From Saccharothrix luteola (GTDB lineage Bacteria > Actinomycetota > Actinomycetes > Mycobacteriales > Pseudonocardiaceae): a stretch of 64,000 bases of DNA. The DNA is taken from positions 62,001-126,000 of the forward strand of contig NZ_JAJHUO010000019.1 in assembly GCF_020859565.1 (NCBI RefSeq). The letters run 5' to 3'. Made by a program: the position numbers and the translations under genes. Positions 1 to 7,188 of this stretch are shown one piece after another (the first letter of the stretch is position 1; the number at the start of each line of letters is the position of its first letter). The notes beneath the pieces are model-generated. The model searched no databases. It was given only the letters and a program-made list of their open reading frames with translations, and was not told the DNA's origin.

Positions 1-201
1 GAAGCCGAGCGAGCGGTGCTGGGGGCCTGGTCAGGGGTTCACCTCCACCGCTATTCCACGCCGCAAGAGCACCCCGGAGTAGAGCCGCCGTCGGCCGTCG
101 GGAATGATGAGGCGCGCGCGGTTATACACGCTGACGAGCATGACCGAACACGTGTTCGTGAGGACACGGTCGACGTCGATCGAAATGCGGGAGGATTAGA
201 G

Positions 202-2745
202 GTGACTGCCGTCGAGCAGGAAGAAAGGAGAAGGACTCTCGCATCGCCCGTCTTCGGCGGAGTGCCACCGAGGAACGTCAACTTCACCGGGCGGGCGGAC
301 CTCCTCCAAGAGCTCGAACGGCGTCTGGTCCGGGGCGGGACCGCGGCCGTGCTGCCCGAAACGCTGCACGGCATGGGCGGGGTGGGCAAGTCTCACCTGG
401 CCATCGAGTACGCCTACCGCAACCGCGCGAACTTCGACCTGATCTGGTGGGTGCCCGCCGAGCGGTCGGTCAAGATCGTCAACTCGTTGGTGGAACTGGG
501 ACAACGCCTGGGCCTCGAAGGCGGCGCCGAATCGAACGTGGCGGTCCAGCAGGTGCTCGACGCCCTGCGCAGCGGCAACCACGCCAAGGTCCCGACCAAC
601 TGGCTGCTCATCTTCGACAACGCCGACAGCCCCGACGCCGTGCAGGAGTACCTGCCCACCGGCGGCACGGGACGCATCCTGGTCACCTCGCGCAATTCCC
701 AGTGGTTGAGCGTCGCCCGCCCGCTCGAGGTCAACGTGTTCCAGCGCTCCGAGAGCGTTCAGCTGTTGCGCCGACGTGACCCCGAACTCAGCGAGGAGGA
801 CGCCGGTCGCCTGGCCGAGGCGTTGGGCGACCTGCCGCTCGCCATCGCGCAGGCGGCGGCGTGGCGCGTGGAGACGGGCATGCCCGCCGACGAGTACCTG
901 GAACTGCTGGCCGAGAAGCAGCTGGAACTGCTCAACGTCACCACGACCCTCGACTACCCCGAGTCGGTGGCGGCGATGTGGGACCTGTCGCTCAACGAGC
1001 TCAAGCGCAAGAACCCGTCGGCGCTGCGGTTGCTGCAGGTGTGCGCCTTCCTGTCGCCGGAGCCGATCAACCGCACGATGTTCAGCTACAGCCGCAACAT
1101 CACCGGTGTGCCGCCCGAGCTGTCCCGGGTCCTGCGCGACCGCTTGCGGCTCAACGAGGCCATCCGCGACATCAACCGCTTCGCGTTGGTGCGCGTCGAC
1201 CACCGCACGAACTCCATCGAGCTGCACCGCCTCGTCCAAGCCGTGCTCATCAGCCAGATGAACGAGGGCGACCGCGCGGTCATGCGCAACGCGGCGCACC
1301 TGATCCTGGGTGAGAACGACCCGGAGGCGCCGGAAGAGCCCGACAACTGGCCGACCTACGTCGACCTGAGCGCGCACCTGGCCGCCTCGAACGCCTACGA
1401 GAGCGATGCCGAGTCGGTCCGGTCGCTGCTCCACAACCAGGTCCAGTTCCTCTACCGGTGGGGCGAGCACAAGCGCAGCGCCGAGCTGTCCGAGCGGATG
1501 TACAAGAACTGGGTGGAGCGGTTGGGGGAGGACCACCCGGAGACCCTGCGGATGGGCCGTTGGTACGGCTTCATGCTCTGGGTGGAGGGCCGGTACGCCG
1601 AGGCGACCCCGTTCAACCTGGAACTGCTGGACCGGCATCGCCGCGTTTACGGTGAGGAGCACGAGGCAACCATCGTGGCCGTGGGCCAGGTCGCGTCGGA
1701 CAAGCGGGCGGAGGGCGACTTCGTCGGTGCGCTGGAGCTGTCGAAGCGCAACTACGACATCTGCGTGCGCTATCTCGGCGACGAGGATCCGGTGACCCAT
1801 GGCGCGGCGCACAACCTGGGTGTGAACTTCCGCCTCATGGGTGACTTCGCCTCCGCCGCCACGCTCGACGCCGACACCTGGGACCGGAGGGTGCAGATCT
1901 ACGGCCAGGAGCACGAGGTACCGCTCAACACCCAGGTCGGCCTCGTCCTCGACAAGAGGGAACTCGGCCACTACCGGGAGGCCGCCGCCGAGCAGGAAGA
2001 AATCGTGCGCATCTACGAACGGCGTAGCGAGGGACGACCGCTGAACCCGGCGTGGCTCCGCGCCGTGCGGCACTTGGCTGTGATGCGCAGCAAGGCGGGT
2101 GACCACGAGGGCGCGATGCGCGCTGCGGAGACGGCGTTCGAGGGTTTGCGGCGGCGGTACAACCTCGACCACCCCGACGTGCTCGCCGCCGCGTTGGCCC
2201 GTTCCGTCGAGCTGAGGCACTTGGGTCGCCATGAAACGGCCGCGCAGCTCGCGCAGAACACGCTGACCCGCTATGCCAAGACGTTGGGAGCCGATCACCC
2301 CCACACCCTGTCCGCGGCCGTGAACGTGGCGATCCTCCGCCGCTTGAAGGGCGACTTCGAAGGTGCCCGCGACCTCAACCAGGCGACCTTGGCGGGCTTC
2401 CACACCCGACTGGGTGATGACCACCCGTCCACGTTGATCACCGGGATCAACCTGGCCAGTGACCTGCACGCGTTGGGCGACGTGCAAGGCGCCCACGACG
2501 CCGATGTCGAGATCCTGCGCCGGGTGACAGCGGTCTTCGGCGCCGACCACCCCACCGCGCTGGCTTGCCAGGTGAACCTCGCTCAGGACGTGCGTTCGCT
2601 CGGGCGCACCGACGAGGCGGACCAACTCCACCTGCGAGCGGTGGCCGCCCTGCGTGAACGGCTCGGGCAGCACCATCCTGCGGTGTCCGAGTTGAGCGAC
2701 CCCCGGGCGCGGGCGAACTGCGACATCGACCCGATGCCGCTCTAA
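202..2745 (+). CDS. fxsT: FxsT-like NB-ARC/TPR protein (FxSxx-COOH system)
   Basis: 847-aa STAND-type NTPase. The N-terminus carries FGGVPPRNVNFTGR, the usual opening of FxsT proteins of the FxSxx-COOH peptide systems. The P-loop HGMGGVGKS lies near residues 56-66 and a Walker B-like LLIFDNAD near 135-142. From about residue 410 to the end it is built of roughly 42-residue tetratricopeptide repeats of the LGEDHPETL type. GTG 202 is chosen because GGGAGG sits 7 nt upstream; the frame stays open back to position 16 without a ribosome site. The last 4 nt overlap the convergent HExxH gene. Known FxsT proteins accompany FxsA peptides and modifying enzymes and are thought to sense or regulate; no function is shown by sequence alone. 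Any radical-SAM FxsB would lie left of the window. Confidence 0.85.
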   Translation: MTAVEQEERRRTLASPVFGGVPPRNVNFTGRADLLQELERRLVRGGTAAVLPETLHGMGGVGKSHLAIEYAYRNRANFDLIWWVPAERSVKIVNSLVELGQRLGLEGGAESNVAVQQVLDALRSGNHAKVPTNWLLIFDNADSPDAVQEYLPTGGTGRILVTSRNSQWLSVARPLEVNVFQRSESVQLLRRRDPELSEEDAGRLAEALGDLPLAIAQAAAWRVETGMPADEYLELLAEKQLELLNVTTTLDYPESVAAMWDLSLNELKRKNPSALRLLQVCAFLSPEPINRTMFSYSRNITGVPPELSRVLRDRLRLNEAIRDINRFALVRVDHRTNSIELHRLVQAVLISQMNEGDRAVMRNAAHLILGENDPEAPEEPDNWPTYVDLSAHLAASNAYESDAESVRSLLHNQVQFLYRWGEHKRSAELSERMYKNWVERLGEDHPETLRMGRWYGFMLWVEGRYAEATPFNLELLDRHRRVYGEEHEATIVAVGQVASDKRAEGDFVGALELSKRNYDICVRYLGDEDPVTHGAAHNLGVNFRLMGDFASAATLDADTWDRRVQIYGQEHEVPLNTQVGLVLDKRELGHYREAAAEQEEIVRIYERRSEGRPLNPAWLRAVRHLAVMRSKAGDHEGAMRAAETAFEGLRRRYNLDHPDVLAAALARSVELRHLGRHETAAQLAQNTLTRYAKTLGADHPHTLSAAVNVAILRRLKGDFEGARDLNQATLAGFHTRLGDDHPSTLITGINLASDLHALGDVQGAHDADVEILRRVTAVFGADHPTALACQVNLAQDVRSLGRTDEADQLHLRAVAALRERLGQHHPAVSELSDPRARANCDIDPMPL

Positions 2746-4580
2746 CCAACCGGCCCCAGCCACTCGGCGAGGCGCTCCACGTCGGGCGTCTCGCCGGTGG
2801 CGGCGATCCTCCTCCGCACGGCGCGGACGAGGTGCGGGCGTTCGAGCAACGCCCGCGACGCCGGACCAGGCGACAGTTCGCGCACCGCGATCCCGAAGCC
2901 GGACCACGCGCCGGGCCGGTCCGAGCCCCCGGTGAGTTCGGTCGAGTACAGCGCGTGCGCCCGTTTGTAGTCTCCTGTGACGAGGGCGAAATCCGCCTCG
3001 GTCACGTCTTCGGTGATCTTGTGGACGTGACCGGGAGGGTCGAACCGCAACGCGTCGAGCTCCGCTCGGCCCGCCAGGAGGATGCGGGTGAGGATGGCCT
3101 TGGCATCCAGCCTGGGAGGTGTGGCGGCGGCCACCACGGGGGAGTGGGTTTCCAAGGGCGGCGCCGGCTCTCCCGCGTGCCATCGCTGGGCGCACTCCAG
3201 CACCTGTGCTCGCACCGGGTGCAGGTGCGTGGCGCGCCAGGCCGTGCGGTGGTCCAGTGCTGCTGCCTCTGCGGCTGCGCGCAGTTCGGCGGGCACCGCG
3301 GCCTTGTCCAGAGGCTCCAGCCGCTCCGCCAGGCGAGCGGCGAACCTCCGTCCGAGATCGGTCAGCGACGGGTGCCGGCGTAGCGCGTGAAGCGCTTCGG
3401 TCACCTGAGTGCGAACGAGGGCGAACTCGAAGTGCGCCAGAGCGGCGTGTGAACCGCTCAGGTGCTCGCGTTGCCTCACCCAGAACTCCGCGACAGCGAG
3501 GAAGGCGTTCACCCCTTGGTACAGACCGGATACCGGACGTGGGTCGTCGCGCCACGGCGCGTAGCAGGTGGCCGGCGGGCCCTCGTGGACCAGAGGTGTC
3601 AGATGGCTGATCGCGTTCAGCTTGCTGTGCTGGTACTCGTGCACCATCGTCACGGCCAGCTGTGCCGCGTCGTGCGGTTCGGAGATGATCGCGGCGCCGT
3701 ACCCTTCGCCGACCGACCCGCTGTACGGTCGGAAGCGGTGGGCCGCGGGTCGCGGTGTGATCACCGACAGGCCGCTGGAGAGTTCCCGTGCGCGGTGCGG
3801 GTGGTTCTGCTCCAGGATCGTCCACGCCTCGGCGAAGACCTTGTTCCACCGCGTCGCCGATGATTCCGACAATGGGTCGGGATGCTCGGGGACCTCCAAT
3901 CCCCGGTACGGTCCGGTGTCGTCCAGGTGGATGCGCGGCGCGACGGAACCCGCCTCGTCCCCGAGAAGGCGGATCGGCTCACATTCGACCGGGTGGGCCG
4001 TGCCGTCGCTGGTTTTCACCGTCAACCCCGTCGCATTCGCGACCAACGTGCCATGACCCCATTCGGCCGCCTCGGGCACTCGCACGGAACCCAGGCCGGG
4101 AAGCACGCCGATTCCATTCCACAGCGGAATAGGAATCGCAAATCGCAGTTTTGCGGACAAGCCCCCCGCGGCGGCCAACAGGTGCAATTGGCCGAGGTGG
4201 AACCACACCGGCGCGGTGTCGGTGACCTTGTTCCGGAGGCGCCGCAGGACGTGCGCCAGCCACAGGCCGACCTGCGGACGTGACAGCAGGGCGGCCACCG
4301 CTTCAGGGTCGGCGCGCTCGGCGGTGATCAGGAGTTCCCACGCCTCGTCCACGGGTGGCAACGGGTTTTGTGAGGCGTGGTGGTGGCGGGCGTGGTGCAA
4401 CACCAGGCGCAAGGCGAGTAGTCGCCGTGTCCGCTCGACGTGGTGCAGTAGCGCCGAGGTGCCGCCGTCGGTCCTTTCGGACGCCATGGCGTCGAACTGG
4501 GCCAGAGACATGCCGTGGTGGGGCAGCGATAACCCGTGCGCGGAGTTGCAGCCTGCCACCTCGTGGTCGCCCCTCGTCAT
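2742..4580 (-). CDS. HExxH-motif peptide-modification enzyme (aKG-HExxH type)
   Basis: About 612 aa. The metal-site motif MVHEYQHSKLNA is at residues ~312-323, followed by the family block CYAPWRDDPRPVSGLYQG, which together identify the HEXXH-motif domain of FxSxx-COOH systems (TIGR04267 family). In many such systems this domain is the C-terminal part of FxsB, fused to a radical-SAM domain; here it stands alone, with no radical-SAM cysteine motif. Some relatives are annotated as 2-oxoglutarate-dependent peptide beta-hydroxylases. It starts 17 nt after the stop of the FxsA-like precursor on the same strand, so enzyme and peptide should be cotranscribed. The start may instead be Met at 4511 (MSLAQFDAM), since neither candidate has a clear ribosome site. 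Substrate assignment to the adjacent peptide is inference. Confidence 0.8.
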   Translation of the reverse strand: MTRGDHEVAGCNSAHGLSLPHHGMSLAQFDAMASERTDGGTSALLHHVERTRRLLALRLVLHHARHHHASQNPLPPVDEAWELLITAERADPEAVAALLSRPQVGLWLAHVLRRLRNKVTDTAPVWFHLGQLHLLAAAGGLSAKLRFAIPIPLWNGIGVLPGLGSVRVPEAAEWGHGTLVANATGLTVKTSDGTAHPVECEPIRLLGDEAGSVAPRIHLDDTGPYRGLEVPEHPDPLSESSATRWNKVFAEAWTILEQNHPHRARELSSGLSVITPRPAAHRFRPYSGSVGEGYGAAIISEPHDAAQLAVTMVHEYQHSKLNAISHLTPLVHEGPPATCYAPWRDDPRPVSGLYQGVNAFLAVAEFWVRQREHLSGSHAALAHFEFALVRTQVTEALHALRRHPSLTDLGRRFAARLAERLEPLDKAAVPAELRAAAEAAALDHRTAWRATHLHPVRAQVLECAQRWHAGEPAPPLETHSPVVAAATPPRLDAKAILTRILLAGRAELDALRFDPPGHVHKITEDVTEADFALVTGDYKRAHALYSTELTGGSDRPGAWSGFGIAVRELSPGPASRALLERPHLVRAVRRRIAATGETPDVERLAEWLGPVG

Positions 4581-4597
4581 GGTGCCGGGTCCGTCGG

Positions 4598-4771
4598 TCA
4601 GGAGCCGCCTTCCGAACCGCCGCCTACGCTGCTGCCGGCGTGGTCCACCTGTCTGAGGAGGCGGTCCGTCGACACTGCCAGGATCTCGTCGTCGAATGTG
4701 TCCAACGTTTCGAGGGAAACGTTCGTCAAGTCGACCAGGTCGGAGTCGATCCGCATCGCCGATTCATCCAC
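4598..4771 (-). CDS. FxsA-like RiPP precursor, non-canonical C-terminus
   Basis: 57-aa peptide with the FxsA leader signature: DSDLVDLTNVSLETLD, an acidic DTFDDEIL stretch and a DRLLRQVD helix. In FXSXX-COOH precursors this leader is followed by a C-terminus ending F-x-S-x-x. Here the end is GSSVGGGSEGGS, with no aromatic residue after the leader, so the usual signature is absent. GTG 4771 is preferred because GGGAGG lies 7 nt upstream; an internal ATG at 4756 (MRIDSD) would give 52 aa. It is followed at once by the stand-alone HExxH enzyme. The tail rich in Ser, Gly, Asp and His is the likely modified core; which residue is modified cannot be told. A different radical-SAM step cannot be excluded because upstream sequence is missing. 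Confidence 0.72.
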   Translation of the reverse strand: MDESAMRIDSDLVDLTNVSLETLDTFDDEILAVSTDRLLRQVDHAGSSVGGGSEGGS

Positions 4772-4912
4772 TAGCGGGCCTCCCGAGTTGGCCACCGGGC
4801 AACGGCGCCCCCGCGCGGTGGGGATTCACCTTCGATGGCATGACCCAGTGTAATGTCCTGGAAACAGAGCGGAAGTGGTGCGTATGGCGGTATTCGGCGC
4901 CGTGAGGGGCAA

Positions 4913-5809
4913 CTAAACGCCACTGACCCGTTCGGCCAACAGGGTGTCGAGTTCGGCCATTTCGGTGGAACCGGCGGCGTAGAAGCGGATCGCGGCCAGC
5001 AGTGCTTCGAGGCCACCCGGGTAGTGCGCGCACGTCCGGACGATGCTGACCGTGTCCGGGCGGTCGGCGTTGTGGCGGGTGATGGAGGCGGCGAAGGGCA
5101 CCTCGCGCAGCACGAGGTCGCGTCCCTCGCGGGTGTCGAAGCCGGGGGTGCGCAGCATGACCTCGATGACCGGGCCGAGTTCGGCCAGGGTCAGGCTCCG
5201 GGTGCGGGCGGCGGGGCGTGTGGTCTCGATCGGGTGACCGTCGACCAGGCGGACCCAGACGTGCGCGTCCACCTCCTTCACCTTGGCCTGCGCCGCCACG
5301 TAGTCGTCGGGCCTGGTGGCCGCGTCGTGGTGGACCACGGAGCGGTAGAAGTGGTCGGAGACGACCAGGACCAGGGTGGCGGTCGAGGTCTTGAGGGCCT
5401 GCTTGGCGGCCGGTGCGTCGAGGATCCGGTAGGTGAAGATCATCTCTTCGCTCGTCTTGCCGCGCTCGTCGAAGTGGACCTCGCCGGCGTGCACGGCCAT
5501 CCTCATCCCCAACCGCGCTTCGTGCGCGTGGGTGTGGTTGTGCCTGCGCAGCGCGGCGACGACGCGCTCCGGCAGCCGTTCGACCAGCACGGACTTGGGC
5601 ACGTCGGCGGGCACCAGCACCATCAGGCTGTCGCCCGCGTCGTCCACCGACTTGTCGTCCCAGGGCAGGTCGCAGTCGGCGAACGCGCTCATCAGCACCT
5701 GGTACATGCCGTTGCGCACGGCGGTGCGGTGAGGTGACGTCCGCGCCGGATCGCCGTAGGACTCCACGTCCACGACGACGAACGAGTGGTGCACCGCGGC
5801 AGACTCCAT
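4913..5809 (-). CDS. Degenerate nucleotide-cyclase protein with EAD2-like C-terminus
   Basis: 298 aa. Residues ~8-195 form a class III cyclase-like fold (FVVVDVESYGD, DAGDSLMVLVP, MRMAVHAGEVHFDE), a family common in actinomycetes where catalytic residues are often incomplete. The final ~90 residues (ELGPVIEVMLRTPGFDTREG ... TCAHYPGGLEALLAAIRF) resemble effector-associated domain 2, a small adaptor known from NTP-dependent conflict systems that pairs effectors with sensors. ATG 5809 is preceded by GGGGAGG at 6 nt. It is upstream of, and in the same direction as, the peptide and HExxH genes, with a 141-nt gap, so it may have its own transcript. The association with the FxsT-like STAND protein fits a sensor-effector circuit; this is inference. 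Confidence 0.72.
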   Translation of the reverse strand: MESAAVHHSFVVVDVESYGDPARTSPHRTAVRNGMYQVLMSAFADCDLPWDDKSVDDAGDSLMVLVPADVPKSVLVERLPERVVAALRRHNHTHAHEARLGMRMAVHAGEVHFDERGKTSEEMIFTYRILDAPAAKQALKTSTATLVLVVSDHFYRSVVHHDAATRPDDYVAAQAKVKEVDAHVWVRLVDGHPIETTRPAARTRSLTLAELGPVIEVMLRTPGFDTREGRDLVLREVPFAASITRHNADRPDTVSIVRTCAHYPGGLEALLAAIRFYAAGSTEMAELDTLLAERVSGV

Positions 5810-5910
5810 GTGACCTCCCCATGCTTGTTGTAGTCCAGCCGAGGGGTGGCGTGGCAGCCGCTCCACTCGAAATGACCAACACCCCGGTTGCGGGACGGCC
5901 CGGATCGGGT

Positions 5911-7188
5911 ATGGAGTCGGGTGTGGACGGGTACGGGTGGACGGTCGCGCTGGTCGCGGTGCTGGTGTTGCTGAACGCGGTGTTCGCGGGCAGCGAGATG
6001 GCGCTGATCAGCCTGCGCGAGGGGCAGCTGCGGGCGTTGGAGCGTGACGACCGGGCGTCCGCGAAGACGCTGGTGAGGCTGGCGCGCGACCCGAACCGGT
6101 TCCTGGCCACCATCCAGATCGGCATCACGCTGGCCGGGTTCCTGGCCTCGGCGACGGCGGCGGTGTCGCTGGCCGAACCCCTGGTGCCGGCGCTGTCGTT
6201 CCTCGGCGGCGCGGCGAACCCGGTGGCGATCGCGCTGGTCACGGTGGTGCTGACGTTCCTGACCCTGGTGTTCGGCGAGCTGGCGCCCAAGCGGCTGGCG
6301 ATGCAGTACGCCATGCGCTGGGCGTTGCTCGTGGCACGGCCGCTGCACGTGCTGTCGGCCGCCTCACGGCCCGCGGTGTGGGCGTTGAGCGCGTCGACGA
6401 ACCTCGTGGTCCGGCTGTTCGGCGGCAAACCGGAACCGGAGTCCGAGCAGATGTCGGCCGAGGAGCTGCGCGAGCTGGTCTCCGCCCAGCGCGGCCTCAA
6501 CGCCGAGCAGCGCATGATCATCACCGGCGCCCTGGAGATCAGCGAGCGCCGGCTGCGCGAGGTCCTGGTGCCGCGCCGGTCGGTGGTCACGTTGGCCGCG
6601 GAAACGGACGTGCCGTCCGCCCGCGCCGAGCTGGCCGCCTCGGGCCACTCGCGCGCACCCGTCGCGCGCGGCGGTCACCTGGACGACGTCGTGGGCGTCG
6701 TGCACTTGCGAGACCTGCTCGACGACGACGCCAAGCTGGTCGACGTGGCCCGCACGCCGATGGTCTTCCCCGACTCGGTCCGGGTGTCCGACGCGCTGCG
6801 CCGGTTCAAGGCCGAGCGCGAGCAGCTCGGCCTGGTCGTGGACGAGCACGGCGCGGTCGACGGCATCATCACGCTGGAGGACCTGCTGGAGGAGATCGTC
6901 GGCGAGATCCTGGACGAGACCGACCGCGACGTGATGGCCGTCCGCAGCGGCGCGGACGGCTCGCTCGTCCTGCCCGGCACGTTCCCCATCCACGACCTGG
7001 TCGACCTGGGCGTCGAGCTGGCCGACCCGCCCGAGGGCGACTACGCCACCGTCGCGGGCCTGGTGCTGGTGGTGCTCGGCCGCATCCCCGAGGGCCCCGG
7101 CGACCGGATCACGATCCCCGGCTGGTCCATCGAGGTGCTGAAGGTCGAGCACCACGCCATCACGTCCGTGCGGCTGCGCCGGCGCTGA
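5911..7188 (+). CDS. CNNM/CorC-family (hemolysin-like) membrane protein
   Basis: About 425 aa: an N-terminal DUF21/CNNM transmembrane domain with four hydrophobic segments (AVLVLLNAVFAGSEMALISL, then segments around residues 65-145), a cytoplasmic CBS-pair (residues ~210-335, including VVGVVHLRDLL and GIITLEDLLEEIVGEI) and a C-terminal CorC_HlyC transporter-associated domain ending ITSVRLRRR. Family members influence Mg2+/Co2+ homeostasis; 'hemolysin' is historical. The start is ATG 5911, with GTG 5923 also possible; neither has a strong ribosome site. It is divergent from the cyclase-like gene, with about 100 nt between them, and ends directly against the convergent aminopeptidase gene with no gap. 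Confidence 0.88.
   Translation: MESGVDGYGWTVALVAVLVLLNAVFAGSEMALISLREGQLRALERDDRASAKTLVRLARDPNRFLATIQIGITLAGFLASATAAVSLAEPLVPALSFLGGAANPVAIALVTVVLTFLTLVFGELAPKRLAMQYAMRWALLVARPLHVLSAASRPAVWALSASTNLVVRLFGGKPEPESEQMSAEELRELVSAQRGLNAEQRMIITGALEISERRLREVLVPRRSVVTLAAETDVPSARAELAASGHSRAPVARGGHLDDVVGVVHLRDLLDDDAKLVDVARTPMVFPDSVRVSDALRRFKAEREQLGLVVDEHGAVDGIITLEDLLEEIVGEILDETDRDVMAVRSGADGSLVLPGTFPIHDLVDLGVELADPPEGDYATVAGLVLVVLGRIPEGPGDRITIPGWSIEVLKVEHHAITSVRLRRR

Follow-up and report, generated by a model that had tools for sequence, protein, structure and literature searches.

An FxsA-type leader peptide lacking FxSxx beside a stand-alone HExxH enzyme in a predicted VMAP-type conflict-system locus of Saccharothrix luteola

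A 64,000-nucleotide stretch of the Saccharothrix luteola genome (the window; bases 62001-126000 of contig C11 in a 10.3 Mb draft) carries a gene for a 57-amino-acid peptide with an FxsA-type leader and a Ser/Gly tail, and the open reading frame (ORF) of an HExxH enzyme begins 17 nt past its stop codon. A preliminary description of the window had reported both ORFs and had read them as a branch of ribosomally synthesized and post-translationally modified peptides. The observation was confirmed, and the interpretation is partly supported. The pair keeps its layout in related genomes, and the predicted fold of the enzyme agrees with its motifs. No FxsB gene was found nearby in the regions searched. 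Judged by its neighbours, the pair sits among the parts of a described VMAP-type conflict system, in a group of defence-like genes, a membership that the preliminary description missed. The tail of the window's clade is unusual, being of neither the RxD nor the acidic type. We consider it fairly probable that the enzyme uses alpha-ketoglutarate (alphaKG) to oxidise the tail of a leader-guided peptide serving an NLR-like ATPase, where both the chemistry and the target are our inference.

The peptide gene starts with GTG, and the putative ribosome-binding site upstream of it was invariant in a DNA alignment with five relatives. The FxsA model TIGR04268 matched the peptide at 18.2 bits (E 0.0022), under its cut-off of 28, and the match was partial, covering positions 1-34 of the 44 in the model. 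All 11 sampled clade relatives have the same leader peptide at the same place adjoining the same enzyme, as expected for the kept leader that had been proposed. The leader match is taken as more than chance because it is conserved beside the enzyme in the clade, evolves at similar rates (see below) and recurs beside most stand-alone enzymes. Against the profile of its own family the peptide scored E 2.4e-19 in its genome, being itself a member of that profile, and TIGR04268 at E ≤ 0.1 matched 45 of 78 related precursors (78 of the 104 distinct ones were submitted). The C-terminus, SEGGS, is not FxSxx, and the tail GSSVGGGSEGGS has no RxD or acidic ending. As already noted in the preliminary description, the tail has no aromatic residue: no Phe, Trp or Tyr follows residue 26, and the single His, H44, stands before the Ser/Gly tail.

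Table 1. Coordinates of the features discussed, in window positions.
Feature	Position	Strand	Remarks
57-aa precursor ORF	4771-4598	-	FxsA-type leader at about residues 7-43, then Ser/Gly tail HAGSSVGGGSEGGS
Tail, H44 to stop	4598..4642	-	DNA alignment with 5 relatives, protein alignment with 11
GGGAGG, likely ribosome-binding site	4779..4784	-	7 nt upstream of the GTG start of the peptide
Stand-alone HExxH enzyme, 612 aa	4580-2742	-	TIGR04267, 162.2 bits
HEYQH, residues 314-318	3627..3641	-	H314, E315, Q317 and H318 invariant in 24 aligned relatives
WRDDPR, residues 343-348	3537..3554	-	W343, R344, D346 and R348 invariant in 24 relatives
3' part of 1304-aa protein	1..2745	+	Gene begins 1169 bases before position 1; NB-ARC and TPR after a vWA-like N-terminal region
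EAD2 protein, upstream of the peptide	4913..5818	-	Pfam EAD2, 78.5 bits (C-terminal)

The enzyme scored well above the cut-off of 40 bits of TIGR04267, the alphaKG-HExxH peptide beta-hydroxylase model, and family and Pfam profile scans found no radical-SAM half in its 612 residues, in agreement with the earlier account. Its AlphaFold model (pLDDT 88.8) showed an oxygenase-like fold over about residues 27-430. Foldseek returned only SjiH (22ob; E 2.1e-21, TMt 0.86) and ChlH (8s5f; E 4.7e-11, TMt 0.76) at E ≤ 0.001; no peptidase was matched at that threshold, aminopeptidase chains appearing only at E 0.4 or worse. The window enzyme has in common with the alphaKG-HExxH domains ChlH (8s5f) and SjiH (22nu, 22ob) the fold, HExxH and a WRxDxRP block, the WRxDxR part of which recurs in ChlH and 22nu. 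In its predicted fold and HExxH motif the protein corresponds to the alphaKG-HExxH peptide oxygenases, and it looks like an intact Fe(II)/alphaKG enzyme of that kind. However, it stands alone, whereas ChlH has been described as the HExxH part of a radical-SAM fusion protein, and unlike the ChlH and SjiH domains it continues beyond about residue 430 into additional C-terminal helices that include a TPR-like repeat (seen in the model and in TPR profile matches).

Relatives were collected from 43 regions (the window's genome, its family and the flanks of relatives) and 78 named loci, the latter with flanks no longer than 6 kb. Among 136 HExxH ORFs, 122 were distinct and 119 covered at least 350 model positions; two of these 119 share their locus with an FxsB-like gene (loci of this kind numbered four overall), and the other 117 form the stand-alone set. 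At a threshold above 6 bits, a precursor with an FxsA-type leader adjoins 103 of the 117, the median distance to where the alignment of the enzyme starts being 42 nt. Five more precursors were recognised by hand, three lost to the length filter and two placed 3' of the enzyme. The pairing of enzyme and precursor is thus conserved across many actinobacteria. None of the 103 ended in FxSxx, and no FxsB was found near any of the 117 enzymes. Near these enzymes, NB-ARC/TPR genes were present in 111 cases (converging in 106), VMAP in 79 and MoxR in 67. Twenty comparison regions chosen for fused-looking hits held a fused FxsB-like gene in 13 cases, a separate one in five and none in two; precursors there ended AFESSF (L190, L191), GWNSAIDGDD and GFESALDGDD (L188, L189).

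Tail types track enzyme clades in a quick, unrooted tree of 140 enzyme rows. The window's clade (12 rows, support 100) has GG..S tails, mostly SVGGH[DNE]S in the relatives; a second clade, from Streptomyces, has STIGGSSGS-like tails, and other clades end in YNPQRD, QxQ, PLITC or RxD. The ending R-x-D-COOH occurs in 35 of the 104 distinct precursors, compared with one among the 464 ORFs of these loci that are likely to be coding. Ala, Gly or Pro precedes x-R-x-D (position -5) in 33 of the 35, and in 38 of 40 once the five hand-found precursors are included, against a background share of about 0.30 for these residues near ORF ends. At 50% identity the 40 tails fall into nine clusters, and only the doubtful L073 cluster is entirely without A/G/P. 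Gly-Gly lies within the last 20 residues of 52 of the 104 precursors, versus 66 of the 464 ORFs. A branch with a support of 93, not starred, sets the radical-SAM-linked enzymes apart from the stand-alone ones, with one exception, L071. Being unrooted, the tree gives this separation but does not show the loss of the cross-linking step that had been proposed.

On the far side of the enzyme, the gene of the 1304-aa protein converges on the HExxH gene with an overlap of 4 nt. NF040586, the family of the FxSxx-system TPR protein, scored 847 bits on it, and Pfam found NB-ARC and TPR. The first 420 residues align with relatives bearing vWA signatures, such as VVDDSPSM and VLTDGV; no vWA domain was found in the protein by Pfam, or by Foldseek at E ≤ 0.001. 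The AlphaFold model of this region (pLDDT 77) gave weak Rossmann-like hits, including an ANTXR2-containing entry at E 0.013. The MIDAS motif of the window's clade is DDGPAM or DEGPAM. On the peptide side, the EAD2 protein also neighbours the peptide in relatives; its N-terminal half had no Pfam hit, and PADLOC gave a single weak match, to DpdK, on this protein (E 0.0022). In the flank left of the window, a protein with EAD2, VMAP-M0 and VMAP-C domains (L005:12064-13575, L005 being the window's locus) is the VMAP component.

The 15 kb to the left of the window, where an FxsB had been thought possible, contain no FxsB-like ORF at phmmer E ≤ 1e-20, other radical-SAM types having been sought only through Pfam scans of three ORFs, and L005 gave none. 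A separate locus on contig C9 holds an FxsB, an FxSxx peptide at 53 bits, an HExxH gene and a TPR protein. The gap of about 0.3 kb between the VMAP and vWA genes (L005:13575-13832) gave no MoxR hit, whereas in most other loci the spacing is 1.0-1.7 kb and includes MoxR; elsewhere in the window's genome there is one weak AAA match (E 1e-6). Of 79 locus rows, some of them the same locus taken from two collections, 19 have no MoxR, and these span several clades, among them Actinoplanes, Micromonospora and several Streptomyces. Its absence is therefore recurrent and not special, and MoxR loss was dropped as a mark of the window's clade alone. Other loci without MoxR are L037-L040, L042, L089, L090, L099, L111, L113, L136, L143, L147, L150, L154, L155 and L161. 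A tie between loss of the MIDAS serine and loss of MoxR is not claimed, because the MoxR-bearing loci L048, L065, L067 and L074 also depart from DxSxS.

Comparison with published systems places the pair close to a known module. Kaur et al. (2020, eLife, PMC7159879) describe a module in which a zincin-like HExxH protein is paired with a fast-diverging precursor, whose type may be FxSxx, RxD, acidic or FtsH. Only the FxSxx type comes with radical SAM, the FtsH type having another kind of it, and for the RxD and acidic types the AP-ATPase is fused to the vWA protein. Radical-SAM-free RxD and acidic types are thus already on record there, and the pair is not a new branch. The window shares with the RxD/acidic VMAP-ternary module an HExxH gene beside a small variable precursor, the lack of a radical-SAM gene, the presence of VMAP, and NB-ARC/TPR fused behind a putatively vWA-like region. 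It differs in a tail with neither RxD nor four contiguous acidic residues, in having no MoxR between VMAP and vWA, and in an enzyme that we read as an oxygenase. With the FxSxx-COOH system of FxsA and FxsB (TIGR04268, TIGR04269) it shares the leader, the NB-ARC/TPR family NF040586 and an HExxH partner, but FxSxx, an aromatic tail residue and a local FxsB are lacking.

Within the enzyme's family, two activities are described for PosC and PflC: they hydroxylate Gln, and in peptides ending ARMD they cleave the chain oxidatively at Ala, leaving an amide; PosC also cuts partly at Gly in a variant (PMC12636437). PesO hydroxylates a Pro that precedes R(V/T)DN, and the modification sites listed for the family are His, Asp, Phe, Gln and Pro (PMC13060819). 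Like the window enzyme, these three proteins have an HExxH domain not fused to radical SAM, and they act near the C-terminus, at ARMD or R(V/T)DN, of leader-guided peptides (PMC12636437, PMC13060819). They differ in their leaders (of nitrile-hydratase type in PflA) and clusters, and the window tail has no R-x-D. By analogy, the ending [A/G/P]-x-R-x-D recalls ARMD and R(V/T)DN, with a spacing one residue off that of ARMD. A literature search found no paper on this pairing besides PMC7159879; it covered subscription papers poorly, and absence is not proven. New here are the window's clade with neither tail type, the shared [A/G/P]-x-R-x-D-COOH of the RxD relatives and the recurrent absence of MoxR.

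We propose that the two genes provide the peptide modification of a VMAP-type conflict system of actinobacteria, here in a form that lacks FxsB, an RxD or acidic tail, and a local MoxR. The FxsA-type leader would bind the stand-alone enzyme, which would use Fe(II) and alpha-ketoglutarate to oxidise a short C-terminal segment, and the modified peptide may then be sensed within the cell by the adjacent vWA/NB-ARC/TPR ATPase, either as a ligand or as a checkpoint. In the window peptide, a backbone or side-chain position between G46 and S57 of the Gly/Ser tail is a candidate site, as is the conserved D43-H44; in the relatives, the shared [A/G/P]-x-R-x-D ending predicts a site, for which the A/G/P residue would be the best guess. 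More speculatively, and with considerable doubt, many actinobacteria might license an NLR-like ATPase by a peptide oxidised at the A/G/P before x-Arg-x-Asp, the window's clade having moved this chemistry to a Gly/Ser(/His) tail. The availability of oxygen or 2-oxoglutarate would in that case influence an immune switch of bacteria. As a bare idea, an RxD tail might also serve the vWA MIDAS as an RGD-like ligand. To our knowledge, the triggers of bacterial NB-ARC/TPR proteins are mostly unknown. If the main proposal is right, peptide oxidation would be linked to these proteins. What has been called a "peptidase" in a widespread class of conflict systems would be an oxygenase, and dozens of small precursors without a curated family would be leader-guided peptides with swappable tails.

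Several points weigh against this proposal or qualify its evidence. The leader match to TIGR04268 is weak by itself: the model gave 21 further sub-threshold matches in the same genome and below-cut-off matches in 8 of 14 control genomes. Relatives were gathered with the window enzyme as query, and the sample leans to stand-alone kin; three precursor scores were below 10 bits (L073, L129, L157), and nine of the 117 enzymes are still without an assigned precursor. The window tail has neither the RxD motif nor the His/Asp of its relatives, and no site in it can be named. The authors of PMC7159879 read the HExxH enzyme of the same module as a peptidase and propose cleavage and a toxin or signal role, and PflC hydrolyses a substrate lacking its leader (PMC12636437). 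These last two points, together with the HExxH motif itself, would suit a metallopeptidase of zincin-like type, releasing a C-terminal peptide by cleavage of the precursor. We nevertheless judge a peptidase unlikely, given the oxygenase matches in the structural search and the WRxDxR block; moreover, E365, which we take as the possible third gluzincin ligand, is Glu in only 14 of 24 aligned rows.

A different outcome of the same chemistry, removal of the tail to leave a peptide amide as with PosC and PflC, is possible, although we lean against it. The Gly, Ala or Pro before x-R-x-D-COOH and the Gly-rich window tail fit such a cut, as do the Ala and partial Gly cleavage by PosC, but the Ala of ARMD directly precedes Arg whereas the small residue of the RxD tails lies one position further up, Pro is hard to fit into this route, and the window's clade has no R-x-D. 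It appears rather improbable that the window peptide is a degenerating copy with a tail that has ceased to matter. Its tail departs from SVGGH[DNE]S through a frame-preserving difference of 9 nt in length, within a stretch rich in GGC (DNA alignment with five relatives), and relative to L037 its ratio of nonsynonymous to synonymous substitution rates (dN/dS) is 0.59, above 0.32 for the leader and 0.39 for the enzyme. However, the reading frame and start codon are intact, as are the ribosome site, the leader and every catalytic residue, and in pairwise comparisons within the clade the median dN/dS (Nei-Gojobori) is 0.39 over 60 leader pairs, 0.44 over 60 tail pairs and 0.41 over 66 enzyme pairs; all these values are rough, as the tail spans only about 14 codons and the dS of the enzyme is near 1. 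The peptide is no evident wreck, and the FxsB with canonical FxsA beside which a decayed copy had been envisaged lies on contig C9. Modification in trans by that FxsB is extremely unlikely: it is present in the genome and the leaders are related, but it has an FxSxx peptide of its own, all 117 distinct stand-alone enzymes lie in loci without FxsB nearby, and the idea was rejected for want of any Phe, Trp or Tyr in the window tail.

Some further observations concern the peptides and their relatives. Window positions 2500-6200 held no notable repeats. Tails ending H-[DNE]-S (L039, L040, L041, L042, L045, L047 and others) resemble the aromatic-x-S of FxSxx with His replacing Phe, and have no FxsB near. 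A third HExxH locus of the same genome, on contig C43 (L006:7976-11356), has an FxsA-like leader and the tail GSSMGGSAPVGGG in frame with the enzyme and no stop between, as if the two were a single protein, for which a sequencing error is possible. At L120:9254-9577 and L164:9028-9222 the precursors, which end GPPGRVD, are found on the 3' side of the HExxH gene rather than upstream. Ten Streptomyces loci (L092, L094, L095, L104, L109, L110, L119, L122, L142 and L145) carry two HExxH genes on opposite strands, each with its own precursor, mostly one of YNPQRD and one of AERFD type.

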